Below, piece by piece: positions 24,052-41,330 of a stretch of DNA of 64,000 bases. This DNA comes from an uncultured SAR86 cluster bacterium. Its GTDB lineage: Bacteria; Pseudomonadota; Gammaproteobacteria; Magnimaribacterales; AG-339-G14. The notes below the pieces were generated by a model, which was not told the origin of the DNA, made no database searches, and was given only the letters and a program-made list of their open reading frames with translations. The position numbers and the translations under genes were made by a program. How positions within the stretch are numbered: the stretch's first letter is position 1; each line of letters opens with the position of its first letter. The stretch covers positions 1 to 64,000 of the forward strand of contig CABZIF010000001.1 in assembly GCA_902525735.1 (NCBI GenBank), given 5' to 3'.

Positions 24052-24591
24052 ATGGTAACAATTAGACTTTCTAGAGCAGGTGCGAAAAAGCGCCCCTATT
24101 ATCATATTACTGTAACGGACTCTAGAAAACCAAGGGATGGAAGGTTTATTGAAAGGATAGGGTTTTTTAACCCAATTGCTCAAGGAAAGGATATTAGATT
24201 AAGTATAGATCATGAAAGGGTGGATTATTGGGTTGGCACAGGAGCTACATTAAGCGAAAGGGTTGAATCTTTGATAAAAGAATCAAAATTATCTCCAGAA
24301 GATTTATTAAAGGTACAAGAAAAGAAAGAACAACTTAGATTAAAAAAATTAGCTAAGAAAAAAGAAAATAAGGAAGCTCCAATCGAAGAAGCAGCAGAAG
24401 CTCCAACCGAAGAGGCAGCAGAAGCTCAAGCCGAGGAAGCTCCAGCCGAGGAAGCTCCAGCCGAAGAGGTAGCAGAAGCTCCAATCGAAGAGGCAGCAGA
24501 AGCTCCAGCCGAGGAAGCTCCAGCCGAAGAGGTAGCAGAAGCTCCAGCCGAGGAAGCTACTGAAGATTCAGAAAAAAAAGAAGATAATTAA
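24052..24591 (+). CDS. rpsP: 30S ribosomal protein S16 with long acidic repeat tail
   Basis: Residues 1 to about 85 are a normal S16 ([46 protein letters not shown]), which binds 16S rRNA early in 30S assembly. Usual bacterial S16 is 80-90 residues, but this one is 179. Residues about 86-107 are a Lys-rich linker, and 108-179 are an Ala/Glu/Pro repeat tail ([15 protein letters not shown] units). The frame stays open and clean through the repeats, and rimM follows after 11 nt, so the tail appears to be part of the gene product. It is first in the rpsP-rimM-trmD-rplS operon. Confidence 0.95.
24373..24588 (+). repeat. in-frame degenerate repeat encoding the S16 acidic tail
   Basis: Repeated GAAGCTCCAGCCGAGGA-type units encode Ala-Glu-Pro-rich peptide. 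A longer unit recurs with a 63-nt (21-codon) period: GCCGAAGAGGTAGCAGAAGC starts at both 24460 and 24523. All copies keep the rpsP frame, as expected if expansion is by in-frame slippage or unequal exchange. Confidence 0.85.
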
Positions 24592-31700: not shown

Positions 31701-32793
31701 ATGAGCGAACAATCCATAGGTGAGCGAATAAAATCTGCTTTTAAGTCTCTTGAAGAGCTTAGGGGGTATCTTTGACTTTGATGCTAAAAGAAAACGTTTA
31801 GAAGAAATAAATACCATACTCCAAGATCCAGAAATTTGGTCTAACCAAGAAAAAAGTCAAAAATTAGGCAAAGAAAAATCTTCTTCAGAGAAATTAGTTA
31901 ATCTAATTGAAAATTTGAGTTCATCTATAAAAGACTTAAACGAATTATTTGAATTAGTTTGTAACGATGAAGTTGAGCTAAATCAACTCGAAAAAGATCT
32001 TTTATATGTAGAAGAAATGATTAGCGATCTAGAGTTCCGAAGAATGTTTTCTGGAAAAATGGATCAGGCAAGTTCCTATCTTGACATTCAGTCTGGTTCG
32101 GGAGGAACGGAAGCACAAGATTGGGCAGAAATGCTACTGCGAATGTACTTGAGATGGGGAGAAAATAAAGGCTTCAAAACAGAGCTAATTGAAGTGTCTC
32201 CTGGAGAAGTAGCCGGTATAAAAAGCGCAACCATTAAATTTGATGGTGATTTTGCTTATGGGTGGTTGAGAACTGAATCTGGCGTTCATAGACTCGTAAG
32301 AAAATCTCCTTTTGATTCTGGAAGTCGAAGACATACCTCCTTTGCATCTATTTTTGTCTCTCCTGAAGTGGACGACGAAATTCAAATTGATCTAAACCCT
32401 GCTGATATTAGAATTGACACTTATAGAGCAAGTGGAGCCGGAGGCCAACACGTAAATAAAACTGATTCTGCAGTAAGACTAACGCATATTCCTTCTGGAA
32501 TTGTAGTTCAATGCCAAACACAAAGATCGCAACACAAGAATAAAGATAGTGCTATGAAACAGTTACGAGCAAAGCTCTTTGAGATAGAATTAAAAAAACA
32601 ACAACAAGAAATGGATAATTTAGAAGCGACGAAATCCGATATTGGATGGGGAAGTCAAATAAGGTCTTATGTTTTAGATTCGGCTAGAATCAAAGATCTC
32701 CGAACAGGAGTAGAGACGGGTAACTGTAATGACGTTTTAGATGGTAATTTGGATTTATTCATCGAAGCTAGTTTAAAGCAAGGAATAGAATAA
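31701..32793 (+). CDS. prfB: peptide chain release factor 2 (programmed +1 frameshift)
   Basis: RF2 ends translation at UGA and UAA. The zero frame starts at ATG 31701 and runs 24 codons to an in-frame TGA at 31773. After a +1 shift, reading resumes at GAC 31774 and continues to 32793, for about 363 residues against 365 in E. coli. RF2 marks are the SPF tripeptide ([15 protein letters not shown]) and the peptidyl-hydrolase motif [16 protein letters not shown]. Annotating only the second frame from a start near 31750 would lose the true N-terminus. The gene abuts thrC and overlaps lysS by 1 nt. Confidence 0.96.
31761..31776 (+). other. prfB programmed frameshift site
   Basis: AGGGGGTATCTTTGAC contains the internal Shine-Dalgarno AGGGGG, the slippery CTT codon and the TGA stop followed by C, the same as the E. 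coli prfB site. Low RF2 allows slippage past TGA, so RF2 controls its own synthesis. Confidence 0.95.
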
Positions 32794-34247
32794 TGACGCA
32801 AGACAAAGAAGAAAATCATTTAATTGAGGAGCGTCGTAAAAAACTAGCTGAACTCAGAGCTGCTGAGAAAGCTTATCCTAATGATTTCAAAAGAAAAAAT
32901 TTAGCTGGAGAAATCAAAGAAGAACTGGATCAATTTTCTAAAGAAGAGCTTGAAAAGAAAAAGAAAAAAGTCTCTGTAGCAGGAAGAATTATGCTTAGAA
33001 GAATGATGGGGAAGGCTAGCTTTACAACCATTCAAGACTTTTCTGGAAGAATCCAGTTATATGTAAGAGCCGATGAAGTTTCTAATTATGATGAATTTAA
33101 AAACTATGATTTAGGAGATATTGTTGGAACCGAAGGAACTATTTTTAAAACAAATACTGGTGAATTATCCATTCATGTAAAAAAAATTAGACTTTTAACA
33201 AAGTCTCTAAGACCACTTCCAGAGAAGCACTTGGGCTTAACAGATACAGAGTTGCGTTATCGTAAAAGATACTTGGATTTGCTTACAAATCCAGAAAGCT
33301 TGGAAGTTTTCAAGATAAGAGCAGAAATTGTAAAAAACATGAGGTCTTTTTTAGTAAATGAAAATTTCATAGAAGTTGAAACTCCCATGATGCATCCTAT
33401 TCCTGGTGGTGCGAGTGCTAGACCATTTGTAACTCATCACAATTCTTTAAATATGGATTTATTTTTAAGAGTAGCCCCAGAATTGTATTTAAAGAGATTA
33501 GTAGTGGGGGGCTTTGAGAAAGTATTTGAAATAAATAGAAATTTCAGAAACGAAGGATTATCTAAAAGACATAATCCAGAATTCACGATGTTGGAGTTTT
33601 ACACTGCTTTTGTAGATAGTAATTTTCAAATCGATTTCGTTGAAAGAATGTTCAAAACAATTGTTAAAAATTTAGCTTCAAAATATAAGATTTTTAAAAA
33701 ATCTTTTCTCAAATTGAGTATGGATGATGCCATTATCAAGAACACCTCTTTAAAGAAAAAGGATTTACTGGACTCAAAGCAGCTTAAAGAATTTTGCAAG
33801 AAACAAAATATTAAAGTTGACAATAAAGCTTCTATTTCAATAATTAAAAATGAAATTTTTGAAGCTTGTGTAGAAAATAAATTAATCGAACCAACTTTTA
33901 TTACGGATTATCCAATAGAGATTTCTCCATTGGCTAAAGCATCAATTTCTAACCCTGATATTGCTGAAAGGTTTGAATTATTTATTGATGGTAAAGAGAT
34001 AGCAAATGGTTTCTCAGAGCTTAATGATCCCGAAGATCAAGCACAACGTTTTAAAGATCAAGTGGCAAAAAAAGATTCTGGAGATAAAGAAGCTATGCAT
34101 TTTGATGAAGATTATATTGAGGCTTTAGAACATGGACTACCACCATGTGCTGGAGTAGGAATTGGAATAGATAGACTAACTATGTTAATTACAGGTACAG
34201 AATCTATTAGAGATGTTTTATTATTTCCCCAATTAAAAAATAAGTGA
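32793..34247 (+). CDS. lysS: lysyl-tRNA synthetase (class II)
   Basis: A 484-residue class IIb synthetase. The N-terminal OB-fold anticodon domain (VAGRIMLRRMMGKASFTTIQ) is followed by the catalytic core with motif 2 (FRNEGLSKRHNPEFTMLEFY) and motif 3 (GVGIGIDRLTMLI). It is about 20 residues shorter than E. coli LysS, with nothing essential obviously missing. The prfB-lysS order is standard for the group. Confidence 0.96.
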   Translation: MTQDKEENHLIEERRKKLAELRAAEKAYPNDFKRKNLAGEIKEELDQFSKEELEKKKKKVSVAGRIMLRRMMGKASFTTIQDFSGRIQLYVRADEVSNYDEFKNYDLGDIVGTEGTIFKTNTGELSIHVKKIRLLTKSLRPLPEKHLGLTDTELRYRKRYLDLLTNPESLEVFKIRAEIVKNMRSFLVNENFIEVETPMMHPIPGGASARPFVTHHNSLNMDLFLRVAPELYLKRLVVGGFEKVFEINRNFRNEGLSKRHNPEFTMLEFYTAFVDSNFQIDFVERMFKTIVKNLASKYKIFKKSFLKLSMDDAIIKNTSLKKKDLLDSKQLKEFCKKQNIKVDNKASISIIKNEIFEACVENKLIEPTFITDYPIEISPLAKASISNPDIAERFELFIDGKEIANGFSELNDPEDQAQRFKDQVAKKDSGDKEAMHFDEDYIEALEHGLPPCAGVGIGIDRLTMLITGTESIRDVLLFPQLKNK

Positions 34248-34252
34248 AAGAT

Positions 34253-35455
34253 ATGAGTAAAGACTGGACAAAAATAAGAGCAAAAGTAAAAGATTTCATT
34301 GAAAACGAAATTTATCCAAAAGAGAACGAGTTATCAAAGGGAACTCAAGAATCCAGAGAGATATTAGGTTCTTTAATGCAACTTGCTAAGGATGAAAAGA
34401 TTTGGGCTTTGGGGCATCCCAAAGATATTGGCGGAGGAGGAATGCCTTTTATGGAATACGTTTATGTGAACGAAGTCATTGGAAGATCTTCCTTTGCAAT
34501 GGTGGCTTTAGGAACTCACTCCCTTCAGGATTCAATCATGCTAAGAGAGTTCGCTTCATCTCATTGGCGAGATCAATATTTAGAACCTTTGGTTCAAGGA
34601 GAAATTTTTCCCAGTTTTGGGATGACAGAGCCAGATGTAGCTAGTTCTGATCCAACACAACTTCAAACAACCGCTATCTTAGACAATGGCTCTTGGAAGA
34701 TTAACGGAAGAAAATGGTTTACGACTGGAGCTTCTAGGGCGGCATACACGACAGTAATGTGTCGAACAGAATTAGATGCACCAAGTCATGGTGCTTTTAG
34801 TATGATTATAGTTCCAACAGACAATCCAGGTTATAAAATAATTAGAGAAACTCCTGTTTTAGGAATCAACGGAGGACATTACGAAGTTGAATATGACAAC
34901 GTCGAAGTTCCTGAAGAAAACTTATTAGGACCAAGAGGACAGGGATTTATTATTGCTCAGAAGAGATTAGGCCCTGGAAGAATTTTTCACTGTATGCGTT
35001 GGCTAGGACAAGCTCAGAGAGCTTTTGATTTGCTTTGTGAAAGAATGCACGAAAGGGAAACTTTTGGGACTCCTTTAACGAAAAAACAACTTCTTCAAAA
35101 GTTTGTCTTTGATAGCGCTTGTGAAATTCAAGCTTCTAGACATTTAACTTTAGATGCTGCAAAGAGAATTGATCAGGGCGATGATGCAAGAATTGAAATC
35201 GGTCTTATAAAAGTTCTTGGGGCTGAAATGTTGCATAATGTCATTGATAGAGCTATTCAAGTTCATGGAGCTAAAGGACTTACAGATGATACTCCTTTGA
35301 GTCTTATGTATCGTCACGCTCGTGAAGCAAGAATTTATGATGGTCCTGATGAAGTACATGTTCAATCTGTAGCTAGAAGAATTCTAAAAAATTATGAAAA
35401 TAATGGCCCCGGTTGGGATTTTGGAGAAAGAGACGCTTCTTTAATATCTTCCTAA
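34253..35455 (+). CDS. acyl-CoA dehydrogenase family protein, ACAD10/11-like
   Basis: A 400-residue flavin dehydrogenase with the three ACAD domains: an N-terminal helical domain, the middle beta domain (FGMTEPDVASSDPTQLQ, WKINGRKWFTTGA) and the C-terminal helical domain (GPGRIFHCMRWLGQAQRAFD, IQVHGAKGLTDDTPL). At the position of the usual catalytic Glu (YEG in medium-chain enzymes) it has RIYDGPDEVH, the DGPDEVH form typical of ACAD10/11-like proteins. I start at ATG 34253; a GTG at 34244 overlapping lysS is possible. It is 1 nt upstream of a kinase-like gene resembling the N-terminal domain of ACAD11. Confidence 0.9.
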   Translation: MSKDWTKIRAKVKDFIENEIYPKENELSKGTQESREILGSLMQLAKDEKIWALGHPKDIGGGGMPFMEYVYVNEVIGRSSFAMVALGTHSLQDSIMLREFASSHWRDQYLEPLVQGEIFPSFGMTEPDVASSDPTQLQTTAILDNGSWKINGRKWFTTGASRAAYTTVMCRTELDAPSHGAFSMIIVPTDNPGYKIIRETPVLGINGGHYEVEYDNVEVPEENLLGPRGQGFIIAQKRLGPGRIFHCMRWLGQAQRAFDLLCERMHERETFGTPLTKKQLLQKFVFDSACEIQASRHLTLDAAKRIDQGDDARIEIGLIKVLGAEMLHNVIDRAIQVHGAKGLTDDTPLSLMYRHAREARIYDGPDEVHVQSVARRILKNYENNGPGWDFGERDASLISS

Positions 35456-35456
35456 A

Positions 35457-36419
35457 ATGTCAATTTTTCAGGAATTTTTAGAAAGTTCACTCAAGCAAAA
35501 AATAAAAAATTTAATTCCACTTACAGGTGGAGCATCAGCAGATATAAATAGAATTATCCTTGCAAACAACAAAGAACTCATTGTTAGACGTTCAGTTATT
35601 AAAGACGAAGCCGTGATGGCAATTCCAAAACTTTTAGAAGCAAAAATTCAAAAAATAGTTAAGTCCTTTGGGGCACCAGTTCCTGAGATAATTATGGAGT
35701 TTTCAGAAGCAGATGAAATTGGAGAAGGCTATATTATGGAGGCAGTTTCCGGCGAGACTATACCAAGAAAAATACTGAAGAATGATAACTACGAATATAT
35801 AAGAGATAAATTACCATTCGAAATTGGAAGATCTTTAGCACAAATCCATCAAACTGAACTTGATCGATTACAGGAATTAGAGCAAGTTTCTTTTGAAGAA
35901 TCTTTAAATAAATTATTTATTATTTACGAAAATTTTAATCAGCCTCAGCCCGTATTTGATTTAGCCTTTAAGTGGCTAGAGACACGAAAAATAGTAGATT
36001 ACGGAAAGGTTTTGGTACATGGAGATTATAGATTTGGAAATTTTATTATTTCTGAAAGGAAACTAGAATCTATTATTGATTGGGAATTAGCTCACATTGG
36101 CAATCCGATGGAAGATTTAGGATGGCTATGTGTTCGCTCTTGGCGTTTTGGAAATATTGAAAAACGCGCTGCGGGTTTAGGAGATATTGACGATTTGATT
36201 GCAGGATACGAATCTAATTCAAAAATAAAAGTAGATAAATCTCAATTAGATATATGGCAATTATATGGCTCTTTGAAATGGGGCATTATTTGTATGATAC
36301 AAACTTTTGCTCATTTGAGTGGAGCAGTAAATTCATTAGAAAAAGCTGCAATAGGAAGAAGGGTATCGGAAACTGAGTTCGATCTGATGAATATGATTAA
36401 GAATAAAAATTTTTTATGA
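35457..36419 (+). CDS. phosphotransferase (APH-like kinase), ACAD10/11 N-domain type
   Basis: A 320-residue aminoglycoside-phosphotransferase-fold protein. LTGGASADINRIIL is the nucleotide-loop region, VLVHGDYRFGNFII the catalytic loop with the Asp base, and SIIDWELAHIGNP the metal-binding Asp. In this subfamily the substrate is more likely an acyl-CoA derivative than an antibiotic, judged from the adjacent dehydrogenase and from the fused order in vertebrate ACAD10/11. It starts 1 nt after the dehydrogenase and overlaps the next gene by 4 nt. Antibiotic resistance is not supported. Confidence 0.85.
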   Translation: MSIFQEFLESSLKQKIKNLIPLTGGASADINRIILANNKELIVRRSVIKDEAVMAIPKLLEAKIQKIVKSFGAPVPEIIMEFSEADEIGEGYIMEAVSGETIPRKILKNDNYEYIRDKLPFEIGRSLAQIHQTELDRLQELEQVSFEESLNKLFIIYENFNQPQPVFDLAFKWLETRKIVDYGKVLVHGDYRFGNFIISERKLESIIDWELAHIGNPMEDLGWLCVRSWRFGNIEKRAAGLGDIDDLIAGYESNSKIKVDKSQLDIWQLYGSLKWGIICMIQTFAHLSGAVNSLEKAAIGRRVSETEFDLMNMIKNKNFL

Positions 36420-36769
36420 ACATTTTTGATCGACCTACATCAAAGGAATTACTAGAGGCAGTTCTAGGCTTTGTAAATGAAGAAATAGAATCCAACGATT
36501 ATACAAAAGACAATAGGTTTAAATTTCTTATAGTTATGAATGTTCTTAATATTGTGAAAAGAGAAGTGAACTTGGGTAGAAAAATAGACGAATCCTTTTT
36601 TAATAAAGGCTTAGACTTATTGAAAGAGGATAATTTTTCTGTTAAAAAAATTTCAGAAAAAATTCGAAACGAAGAACTTAGTATTGAAGATCAACCTCTT
36701 TTAGAGTTTTTATATGATTTAACGATAGAAAAAATAAAGATAGATAATCCAAAATACCTAAAAGAATGA
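36416..36769 (+). CDS. DUF6285-like protein, unknown function
   Basis: A 117-residue mostly helical protein. The start (FDRPTSKELLEAVLGFVNEEI) and the later FLIVMNVLNIVKREVNLGRK match the small family that travels with acyl-CoA-linked APH kinases (DUF6285). No catalytic motif is visible; it may be an accessory subunit (inference). It is coupled by an ATGA overlap to the kinase, and its own stop overlaps the start of the next small gene. Confidence 0.7.
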   Translation: MNIFDRPTSKELLEAVLGFVNEEIESNDYTKDNRFKFLIVMNVLNIVKREVNLGRKIDESFFNKGLDLLKEDNFSVKKISEKIRNEELSIEDQPLLEFLYDLTIEKIKIDNPKYLKE

Positions 36770-36891
36770 GAAAAGGCATATTATTATTGATAGCAATCCT
36801 TTCAATTGGAAGCTTTTTTCTTTACAACTTATACCAAACTCAGTTGGTTAAGATGGAACATTCTTTTGAGCACATCATGCATCGTCACTGA
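36766..36891 (+). CDS. 41-residue single-TM membrane microprotein with His-rich tail
   Basis: This small frame begins at an ATG overlapping the upstream TGA (ATGA), which is how every neighbour here is coupled, and ends exactly one base before the converging mdh gene. The peptide is MRKGILLLIAILSIGSFFLY, an N-in membrane span, followed by a short linker and the tail MEHSFEHIMHRH, with four His in twelve residues. No family is recognised. Support comes from position, the ATGA coupling and a protein-like membrane pattern; conservation has not been tested. It could bind a metal or anchor the upstream enzymes, but both are guesses. Confidence 0.55.
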   Translation: MRKGILLLIAILSIGSFFLYNLYQTQLVKMEHSFEHIMHRH

Positions 36892-39498: not shown

Positions 39499-40407
39499 AT
39501 GACCATTAATTTTGAAGGAAAAGTAGCAATTGTTACTGGAGCAGGAGGCGGTTTAGGCAGATGTCATGCTTTAGATTTAGCCAAAAGAGGAGCCAAAGTA
39601 GTTGTAAATGATTTGGGCGGAAATGTTGATGGTTCTGATGATGGCTCTTTATCTGCAGCAGAAAAAGTGGTCGAAGAAATAACCGCTGCAGGAGGCGAGG
39701 CTATGGCCAACGGTGCAAGTGTTACAGATGTATCTCAAGTAGAAGAAATGGTTAAAGAAACCATGGATAAATGGGGTCGCATAGACATACTAGTCAATAA
39801 CGCAGGAATATTGAGAGATAAAAGCTTTGCAAAAGTATCCGATGAAGATTTTAGGCTTGTTTTAGAAGTTCATTTGATGGGAAGTGTGAATTGCTGCAAA
39901 GCTGTTTGGGAGATTATGAAAGAACAAAATTATGGAAGAATATTAGTTACTTCCTCCTCTAGCGGTTTATACGGAAATTTTGGACAAACTAATTATGGCG
40001 CAGCAAAACTTGGCTGTGTTGGTTTAATCAATACTTTAAAACTTGAAGGGGCAAAATATAATATCAAATGTAATGCTTTGGCTCCTGTAGCGGGGACAAG
40101 AATGACAGAAGATCTAATGCCAGGAGAAGTTTTAGAAAAACTTCAACCAGAATTTGTAACTCCTGCTGTAACTTATATGGTTTCTGAAGATGCTCCGAAT
40201 GGTGCAATAATAGCTGCAGGCGCAGGAGTCTTCACCAGAGTAATGATTCACGAAACAATGGGCGTTAATCTTGGAACAGGCGAAGATATGACTGCAGAAA
40301 ATATTGCTGATAATTGGGAACAAATATCAGATATGACTAATGCAAAACTTCCTTATCAAGGCGGCGATCAAACTGTCAAAATATTTGAGTTGATTGGAAA
40401 GAGCTAA
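39499..40407 (+). CDS. SDR dehydrogenase, MFE-2-like (R)-3-hydroxyacyl-CoA dehydrogenase type
   Basis: A 302-residue short-chain dehydrogenase. The NAD motif is VTGAGGGLGRCHALDLAKRG, and it has KVVVNDLGGNVDGS followed by a Ser-rich stretch as in the dehydrogenase domain of peroxisomal multifunctional enzyme 2. The catalytic set is NNAG, TSSSSGLYGNFGQ and NYGAAK. The C-terminal extension beyond a normal SDR (from about 210) also fits MFE-2. No hydratase domain is fused. It has a strong AAGGAG ribosome-binding site. It probably acts in beta-oxidation of branched or bulky acyl-CoAs. Confidence 0.87.
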   Translation: MTINFEGKVAIVTGAGGGLGRCHALDLAKRGAKVVVNDLGGNVDGSDDGSLSAAEKVVEEITAAGGEAMANGASVTDVSQVEEMVKETMDKWGRIDILVNNAGILRDKSFAKVSDEDFRLVLEVHLMGSVNCCKAVWEIMKEQNYGRILVTSSSSGLYGNFGQTNYGAAKLGCVGLINTLKLEGAKYNIKCNALAPVAGTRMTEDLMPGEVLEKLQPEFVTPAVTYMVSEDAPNGAIIAAGAGVFTRVMIHETMGVNLGTGEDMTAENIADNWEQISDMTNAKLPYQGGDQTVKIFELIGKS

Positions 40408-41330
40408 GGTTTTCCGGTTCCAGGGATATCTACTTCTATAGAGTGAATTTCTCCTTCAGGGCTTAGTTGGGCTTCTTCAGGATCAGAGCTGTTTGAAAGA
40501 ATCACGTACAAGGTTTTCCTTTCTTTCCCTCCCAATATACAAGCAAAAGCGCCTTTAGGAGTTTTAATAGTATCTGTGATTCTGCCACCTTTTTCTATTC
40601 TTACTACAGCATTAGATGTAGGAGAAGCTATCCAGATACCATCTTTTTCATCTAAACAAATTCCATCTGGCACATGAAGATTTCTTGAATATTTTGAAAA
40701 ATCAACTTTAGATAAATCAAAACCCAAAGCACTCAAAAACCTAATTATTAAAAGTGAAAATAAAGGTGAGGTCCTTGCCCACAATTTTCTATTTGTAAGT
40801 TCTCCATTCTCATCAATATCAAAAGAAGTTAATTTTGCTCCTAGGGTTTCAGCCACGATTAACTTTTTTCCATCTTCTGTTATTACAGTTCCGTTTGGAA
40901 AAAGAATCTTATCTGGACCTTTTAAAGCAGAACCATCAGATTTCACAATCATCAAATGAGTAGAATTTAGATTCTCACCAGCATCTTCCATTCCAAAATT
41001 ACCAACATACGCAGTGCCGTCTTTACTAACAACCATATCATTACACTTGTGAGTTACGTATTCTGATAAATCTGCGTGAACTGAGATTTGACCATTTGAA
41101 TATCTTAAAATTTTTCTATCCAACATAGAGACTATCAAAAGATCTCCGTTTGGCAACCAACCTAGACCAGATGGCTGATTAGGAACTTCACACACCGTTT
41201 CTAATAGATTGTTTTCATCCAATGTCATAACTTTGTGAGAGTAAAAATCTGAAAACCATAATTTACCATCATGCCATCTTGGACCTTCTCCAAAATAAAG
41301 CCCGCCAGTCAATTTTTTTAATTCATTCAT
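40404..41330 (-). CDS. SMP-30/gluconolactonase/LRE family protein
   Basis: A 308-residue six-bladed beta-propeller hydrolase. The start LTGGLYFGEGPRWHDGKLWF contains the conserved metal-binding Glu, and QPSGLGWLPNGDLLIVSM, CNDMVVSKDGTAYVGNFG and HVPDGICLDEKDGIWIAS carry the usual Asn/Asp ligands. Family members open lactones or related esters, but the substrate is unknown. The stop region overlaps the convergent SDR by 4 nt. No signal peptide is evident. Confidence 0.88.
   Translation of the reverse strand: MNELKKLTGGLYFGEGPRWHDGKLWFSDFYSHKVMTLDENNLLETVCEVPNQPSGLGWLPNGDLLIVSMLDRKILRYSNGQISVHADLSEYVTHKCNDMVVSKDGTAYVGNFGMEDAGENLNSTHLMIVKSDGSALKGPDKILFPNGTVITEDGKKLIVAETLGAKLTSFDIDENGELTNRKLWARTSPLFSLLIIRFLSALGFDLSKVDFSKYSRNLHVPDGICLDEKDGIWIASPTSNAVVRIEKGGRITDTIKTPKGAFACILGGKERKTLYVILSNSSDPEEAQLSPEGEIHSIEVDIPGTGKP

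Follow-up and report, generated by a model that had tools for sequence, protein, structure and literature searches.

A probable LvaABC-type module for 4-hydroxyacyl-CoAs with an uncharacterised acyl-CoA dehydrogenase branch in a SAR86 bacterium

Phosphorylation of 4-hydroxyacyl-CoAs followed by elimination of the phosphate has been reported for the bacterial LvaABC proteins and for ACAD10/11 (PMC6692424, PMC11342911, PMC12440821). The Lva pathway of Pseudomonas putida combines such a kinase with the 12-kDa protein LvaB and such an acyl-CoA dehydrogenase (ACAD) (PMC6692424, PMC12440821, PMC11342911); LvaB (~12 kDa) is reported to come down with LvaA in pull-downs and to be indispensable when the cells grow on levulinate (PMC6692424). 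In ACAD11, R626, H634, and R637 bind the 4-phosphate group, R631 orients the acyl-CoA, and D753 acts as the base; the majority of these residues are confined to ACAD10/11 and LvaC, and they are required for activity (PMC12440821). An APH-fold kinase also activates an alcohol for phosphate elimination in Sterolibacterium denitrificans, but this 25-hydroxy steroid kinase differs in taking a free steroid as substrate, and no DUF6285 protein is named for it.

We compared these systems with an operon in a 64,000-nt stretch of DNA (the window) from an uncultured SAR86 cluster bacterium, whose SAR86-type genome measures 1.18 Mb. The four genes at 34253-36891 lie as the initial annotation had placed them, with a 1-nt gap between the ACAD and kinase genes and ATGA overlaps at the kinase/DUF6285 and DUF6285/41-aa ORF junctions. 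The features are as follows.

34253..35455, + strand: ACAD, 400 aa, HCMR type, with three Pfam ACAD domains, placed by alignment with ACAD11 and by tree
34964..34999, + strand: signature helix RLGPGRIFHCMR, with the ACAD11/LvaC phosphate- and acyl-CoA-binding residues (roles from PMC12440821)
35339..35359, + strand: DGPDEVH motif, with the catalytic Asp D363 equivalent to ACAD11 D753
35457..36419, + strand: APH-fold kinase, LvaA type, 320 aa (Pfam PF01636, E 5.6e-22; tree)
36416..36769, + strand: DUF6285 protein, LvaB family, all-helical, 117 aa (PF19802, E 3.6e-14, above cut-off)
36766..36891, + strand: 41-aa single-pass membrane ORF, coding, conserved in two SAR86 genera only
32793..34247, + strand: lysS (with prfB), the gene immediately upstream; genomic context, outside the system

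The ATG of the ACAD gene lies 5 nt downstream of the lysS stop codon (34247), and the operon may thus be read together with prfB-lysS. Besides these two genes, the operon neighbours are MDH, thiolase-like, SDR, and SMP-30-like genes. NCBIfam gave no name for the ACAD, the kinase, or the DUF6285 protein. The SMP-30-like protein (40404-41330; recognized by eye, with no NCBIfam match) is kept near the operon across SAR86 genera and is encoded on the opposite strand in a separate transcription unit; if it is a lactonase, it could yield 4-hydroxy acids from gamma-lactones. In the sister SAR86 family f2, a gene of 578-579 aa stands directly upstream of the module (L053, L054, L055), and it is ketoacyl-synthase-like where tested (L052). 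Elsewhere in the window, an ORF at 24052-24591 encodes a bS16-like ribosomal protein of 179 aa with a long, repetitive Glu/Ala-rich tail.

The DUF6285 protein had been annotated as a component with no known function. However, the RefSeq protein named "4-hydroxypentanoyl-CoA kinase subunit LvaB" from a P. aeruginosa plasmid (NZ_MF344569) matches PF19802 (E 4.8e-24), so that DUF6285 corresponds to the LvaB family. The lva operon of that plasmid comprises a regulator, the kinase, LvaB, the ACAD, an SDR, a CoA synthetase, a DUF485 protein, and a symporter, and a comparable plasmid of S. stutzeri has a protein named DUF6285 at the LvaB position. An LvaA-type kinase gene adjoins the DUF6285 gene on the same strand in all 30 sampled Pseudomonadota loci, and several Pseudomonadota loci encode natural single-chain kinase-DUF6285 fusions. 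One such fusion was predicted as a single confident unit (pTM 0.91), with a kinase part resembling 3dxp and the 25-hydroxy steroid kinase. DUF6285 itself was predicted to be all-helical (pLDDT 91); searching this model against the PDB gave no fold match (best E 1.7), and we found neither solved structures of DUF6285 or LvaB nor, among the papers searched, any that uses the name DUF6285. Six rows from plasmid records were left out of the structure modelling. In two Myxococcota loci (L218 and L220, from the genomes of L191 and L205), DUF6285 lacks a kinase neighbour over a distance of 1.5 kb.

The kinase contains the catalytic loop HGDYRFGN (D190, N195) and the sequence IDWE (D208), which satisfy the HxDxxxxN and DWE motifs. 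In a tree of 41 kinases, the DUF6285-linked kinases, including LvaA, split from the ACAD10/11-type kinases at 84/100 and in all 200 bootstrap trees sampled, the support on this branch being modest and the single outgroup row having a very long branch. The window kinase (P0002) falls on the DUF6285-linked side; it is not within the ACAD10/11 group and is not fused to an ACAD. It is 31% identical to LvaA and scores only 32-36 bits against ACAD11. Catalytic motifs, an adjacent DUF6285 gene, and grouping with LvaA are thus all those of an LvaAB-type kinase. In other loci (L110, L113, and L116-L120 of family f57, L084, L128, and L035), an LvaA-type kinase with DUF6285, often fused, adjoins an ACAD that has the normal Glu base (EGAEEIQ) and lacks HCMR, so this kinase might be used in several different chemistries; the f57 genomes checked carry an HCMR ACAD elsewhere.

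For the ACAD, the closest solved structures are mouse ACAD11 (240 bits) and human ACAD11 (235 bits). Its catalytic motif is YDGPDEVH, with the catalytic Glu replaced by Asp, and the HCMR motif is present. The active-site comparison with ACAD11 that the initial annotation had proposed gave a full match: in the alignment, R238, R243, H246, R249, and D363 correspond to R626, R631, H634, R637, and D753 (5/5 conserved). HCMR motif, upstream Arg, and catalytic Asp are also those that characterize LvaC. A tree of 45 ACADs separated the HCMR-type proteins from other ACADs (97/93) and divided them into three clades, namely, LvaC (99/96), ACAD10/11 (100/100), and a third containing the window ACAD (P0001; 100/99); in this tree the outgroup branches are long, as flagged by the program, and two proteins labelled ACAD10/11-type beforehand (L210, L213) fall outside the ACAD10/11 clade. 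The third clade is closer to ACAD10/11, as its sister (100/98), than to LvaC. The window ACAD is therefore, within this tree, a member of neither named clade by descent, yet it has the active site of both. Its identity to LvaC is 34-36%, and it is about equally distant from ACAD11. To our knowledge, the third clade is biochemically uncharacterised. The ACAD is 95% identical to that of genus g4, compared with 65% for lysS, 74% for the kinase, and 55% for DUF6285 (L051, L045, L040), which suggests an unusually strong constraint on the ACAD, far above that on its neighbours. Recent transfer was rejected as the cause of this identity because synonymous changes approach saturation (dS 1.6-2.2).

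The ACAD, kinase, and DUF6285 genes form a real, conserved module. They are adjacent in that order in 57 of the 80 named loci with a close ACAD homologue, contig ends cutting 7 more; 45 of the 57 are SAR86-like records and 12 come from other gammaproteobacteria, including Zhongshania, Parahaliea, and Spongiibacter. Of 61 relatives from the SAR86 order, 38 encode the ACAD and 37 encode DUF6285; the disagreements (G022, G027, G028) fall at contig ends, and two whole families have neither gene. Genomes G037 and G052 retain an ACAD that has been relocated away from the module. Eleven genomes have a third-clade ACAD with no neighbouring kinase, and DUF6285 is encoded elsewhere in 10 of them, 8 of these with a kinase adjoining or fused to it; the background frequency of DUF6285 in our Pseudomonadota sample is 46/397 genomes. 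The co-occurrence of DUF6285 with both enzymes, suggested earlier as a check, held up for the HCMR pattern as it had for the adjoining kinase: the pattern occurs in 42/46 genomes with DUF6285 versus 121/351 others (Fisher p 5e-14, uncorrected for relatedness). Genomes lacking DUF6285 thus often carry an HCMR ACAD, as would be expected if kinases of the ACAD10/11 type can work without this subunit.

The closest known system is thus the bacterial Lva pathway (LvaA, LvaB, LvaC), which ACAD10/11 resemble, and not a split ACAD10/11. With LvaABC of P. putida KT2440 and of the P. aeruginosa plasmid (L033), the SAR86 operon shares an LvaA-type APH kinase from the DUF6285-linked group, a DUF6285/LvaB protein, and an HCMR ACAD, but its ACAD comes from a different clade and its gene order is ACAD-kinase-DUF6285, after prfB-lysS, with no lvaR, lvaD, lvaE, or transporter gene adjoining. 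The vertebrate proteins share the expected two-step chemistry, the conserved active-site residues, and a sister ACAD clade; they differ from the SAR86 proteins, which are separate chains accompanied by DUF6285 and include a kinase of another group. Bacterial APH+ACAD pairs lacking DUF6285 (e.g., L210, L212) were grouped with ACAD10/11 for comparison. The cluster on Thermus plasmid pTT27 (TTH_RS10075-RS10060, L031) has the order ACAD-APH-DUF6285 and the HCMR motif, whereas its ACAD groups with LvaC and it is flanked by an SDR and an AMP-ligase upstream and a histidine phosphatase downstream. The operon had been put forward as a candidate for an undescribed system; since the P. putida pathway already pairs kinase, LvaB, and ACAD, it is better regarded as a well-supported example of an already known chemistry in which the ACAD represents an uncharacterised branch.

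On the basis of the gene order, the signature residues, the assignment to families and clades, and the co-occurrence that we observed, we consider it highly probable that the first three genes specify an LvaABC-type route for 4-hydroxyacyl-CoAs. The two reactions and the LvaA-LvaB interaction are known from published homologues, whose action the SAR86 proteins would match. The kinase, with DUF6285 as an obligate subunit, would phosphorylate the 4-hydroxyl of a 4-hydroxyacyl-CoA at the expense of ATP. In the FAD-bound ACAD, Asp363 would then serve as the base while R238, H246, and R249 hold and expel the phosphate of the 4-phosphoacyl-CoA, giving a 2-enoyl-CoA that would enter normal beta-oxidation with no net oxidation. 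This kinase and elimination chemistry, already proposed in the initial annotation, draws support from the residues restricted to ACAD10/11 and LvaC as well as from the relationship of the kinase to LvaA. Elsewhere in the genome, five acyl-CoA synthetase-type genes above the curated cut-off could supply the CoA esters.

As for the substrate, none of lvaR, lvaD, lvaE, lvaFG/transporter, or a sigma-54 regulator adjoins the operon, and in view of the missing linked lvaDEFG we rejected levulinate as unlikely to be the specific substrate. The substrate is probably instead a medium- or variable-chain 4-hydroxy fatty acid, which could arise by oxidation of lipids or derive from gamma-lactones or other dissolved organic material. 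We also entertain, as a possible but rather doubtful extension, that the third ACAD clade, which is accompanied by a DUF6285-kinase in nearly every case, acts on a substrate distinct from both levulinate and the ACAD10/11 substrates, e.g., a hydroxyacyl-CoA that is branched or derived from sterols and is plentiful in sea water. Such a distinct substrate would account for the strong conservation of the ACAD and for the presence, in so small a genome, of a second, ACAD10/11-type pair.

It is unlikely that the kinase and ACAD apply the same phosphorylate-then-eliminate logic to some other hydroxylated compound, such as a steroid or isoprenoid side chain. The bacterial 25-hydroxy steroid kinase has the same fold, carries out an ATP-dependent dehydration (PMC8449060), and was among the top structural matches to the fusion model, and SAR86 drafts have been reported with testosterone/cholate pathway genes (PMC4810484). 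That enzyme takes free steroids, however, while the HCMR residues seen here are those shown for 4-phosphoacyl-CoA, and we identified no steroid genes near the operon.

The initial annotation had likened the operon to a split ACAD10/11, in which the kinase and ACAD would be directly orthologous to the vertebrate fusion protein, with DUF6285 and the microprotein as extras. The shared chemistry residues agree with this, as does the position of the ACAD clade beside ACAD10/11 rather than LvaC, but we judge such orthology very improbable, and it appears largely refuted by the two trees. Placement outside the ACAD10/11 clades, named beforehand as a refuting outcome, was found for the kinase, which belongs to the DUF6285-linked group and barely scores against ACAD11, and for the ACAD, which lies in the sister clade, and this goes part of the way to that refutation. 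Moreover, the same genome encodes an HCMR ACAD (G000:C1 near 234466) scoring 461 bits to ACAD11 and a kinase (G000:C12 near 5747) scoring 239 bits; they fit far better, lie on different contigs, and have no DUF6285, the genome holding only one. By sequence comparison, the description as a split ACAD10/11 would suit these two better. A third ACAD of this genome with DGPDEVH (L072:6133-7350, G000:C4) has HCMN replacing HCMR.

The microprotein had been counted among the operon's components, and it could conceivably be a membrane anchor or regulator of a kinase-ACAD complex. Its ATGA overlap with DUF6285 would suit such a role, as would its conservation: identities are 49-100% in genera g1 and g3, with dN of 0.01-0.40 versus dS of 0.3-2.0, indicative of a coding sequence under purifying selection. 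Yet it occurs in only 18 of the 61 relatives, all in g1 and g3, is absent from most module-bearing SAR86 genera and was not seen at the Thermus and Pseudomonas loci, and in g3 it stands behind other genes that separate it from DUF6285. Restricted to two genera and detached in one, the 41-aa ORF was rejected as a module part, although it is cotranscribed with the operon here, and we regard an anchoring or regulatory role as very improbable. In g3 (L045:6358-6480, L046, L047), the ORF has a His-rich tail and overlaps a preceding ORF of ~76 aa, and in g4 a DUF411 gene occupies its position. Finally, that an ordinary beta-oxidation ACAD merely sits beside an unrelated small-molecule kinase, as the crowding of unrelated genes in streamlined genomes and the adjoining lysS might suggest, is scarcely tenable given an order kept in 12 other gammaproteobacterial loci and, with remote homologues, in Thermus, a co-occurrence that holds when the genes are unlinked, and the Asp and HCMR of the active site.

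Read as an LvaABC-type module, the locus gives DUF6285 a role as an LvaB-type kinase subunit, for which linkage, fusions, and co-occurrence all speak, and points to two lineages of kinases acting in the same chemistry, of which only one has this subunit. It also brings to light an ACAD clade, highly conserved and as yet uncharacterised, in bacteria that abound in the ocean, and the question of which marine organisms consume 4-hydroxy fatty acids becomes testable with three recombinant proteins.
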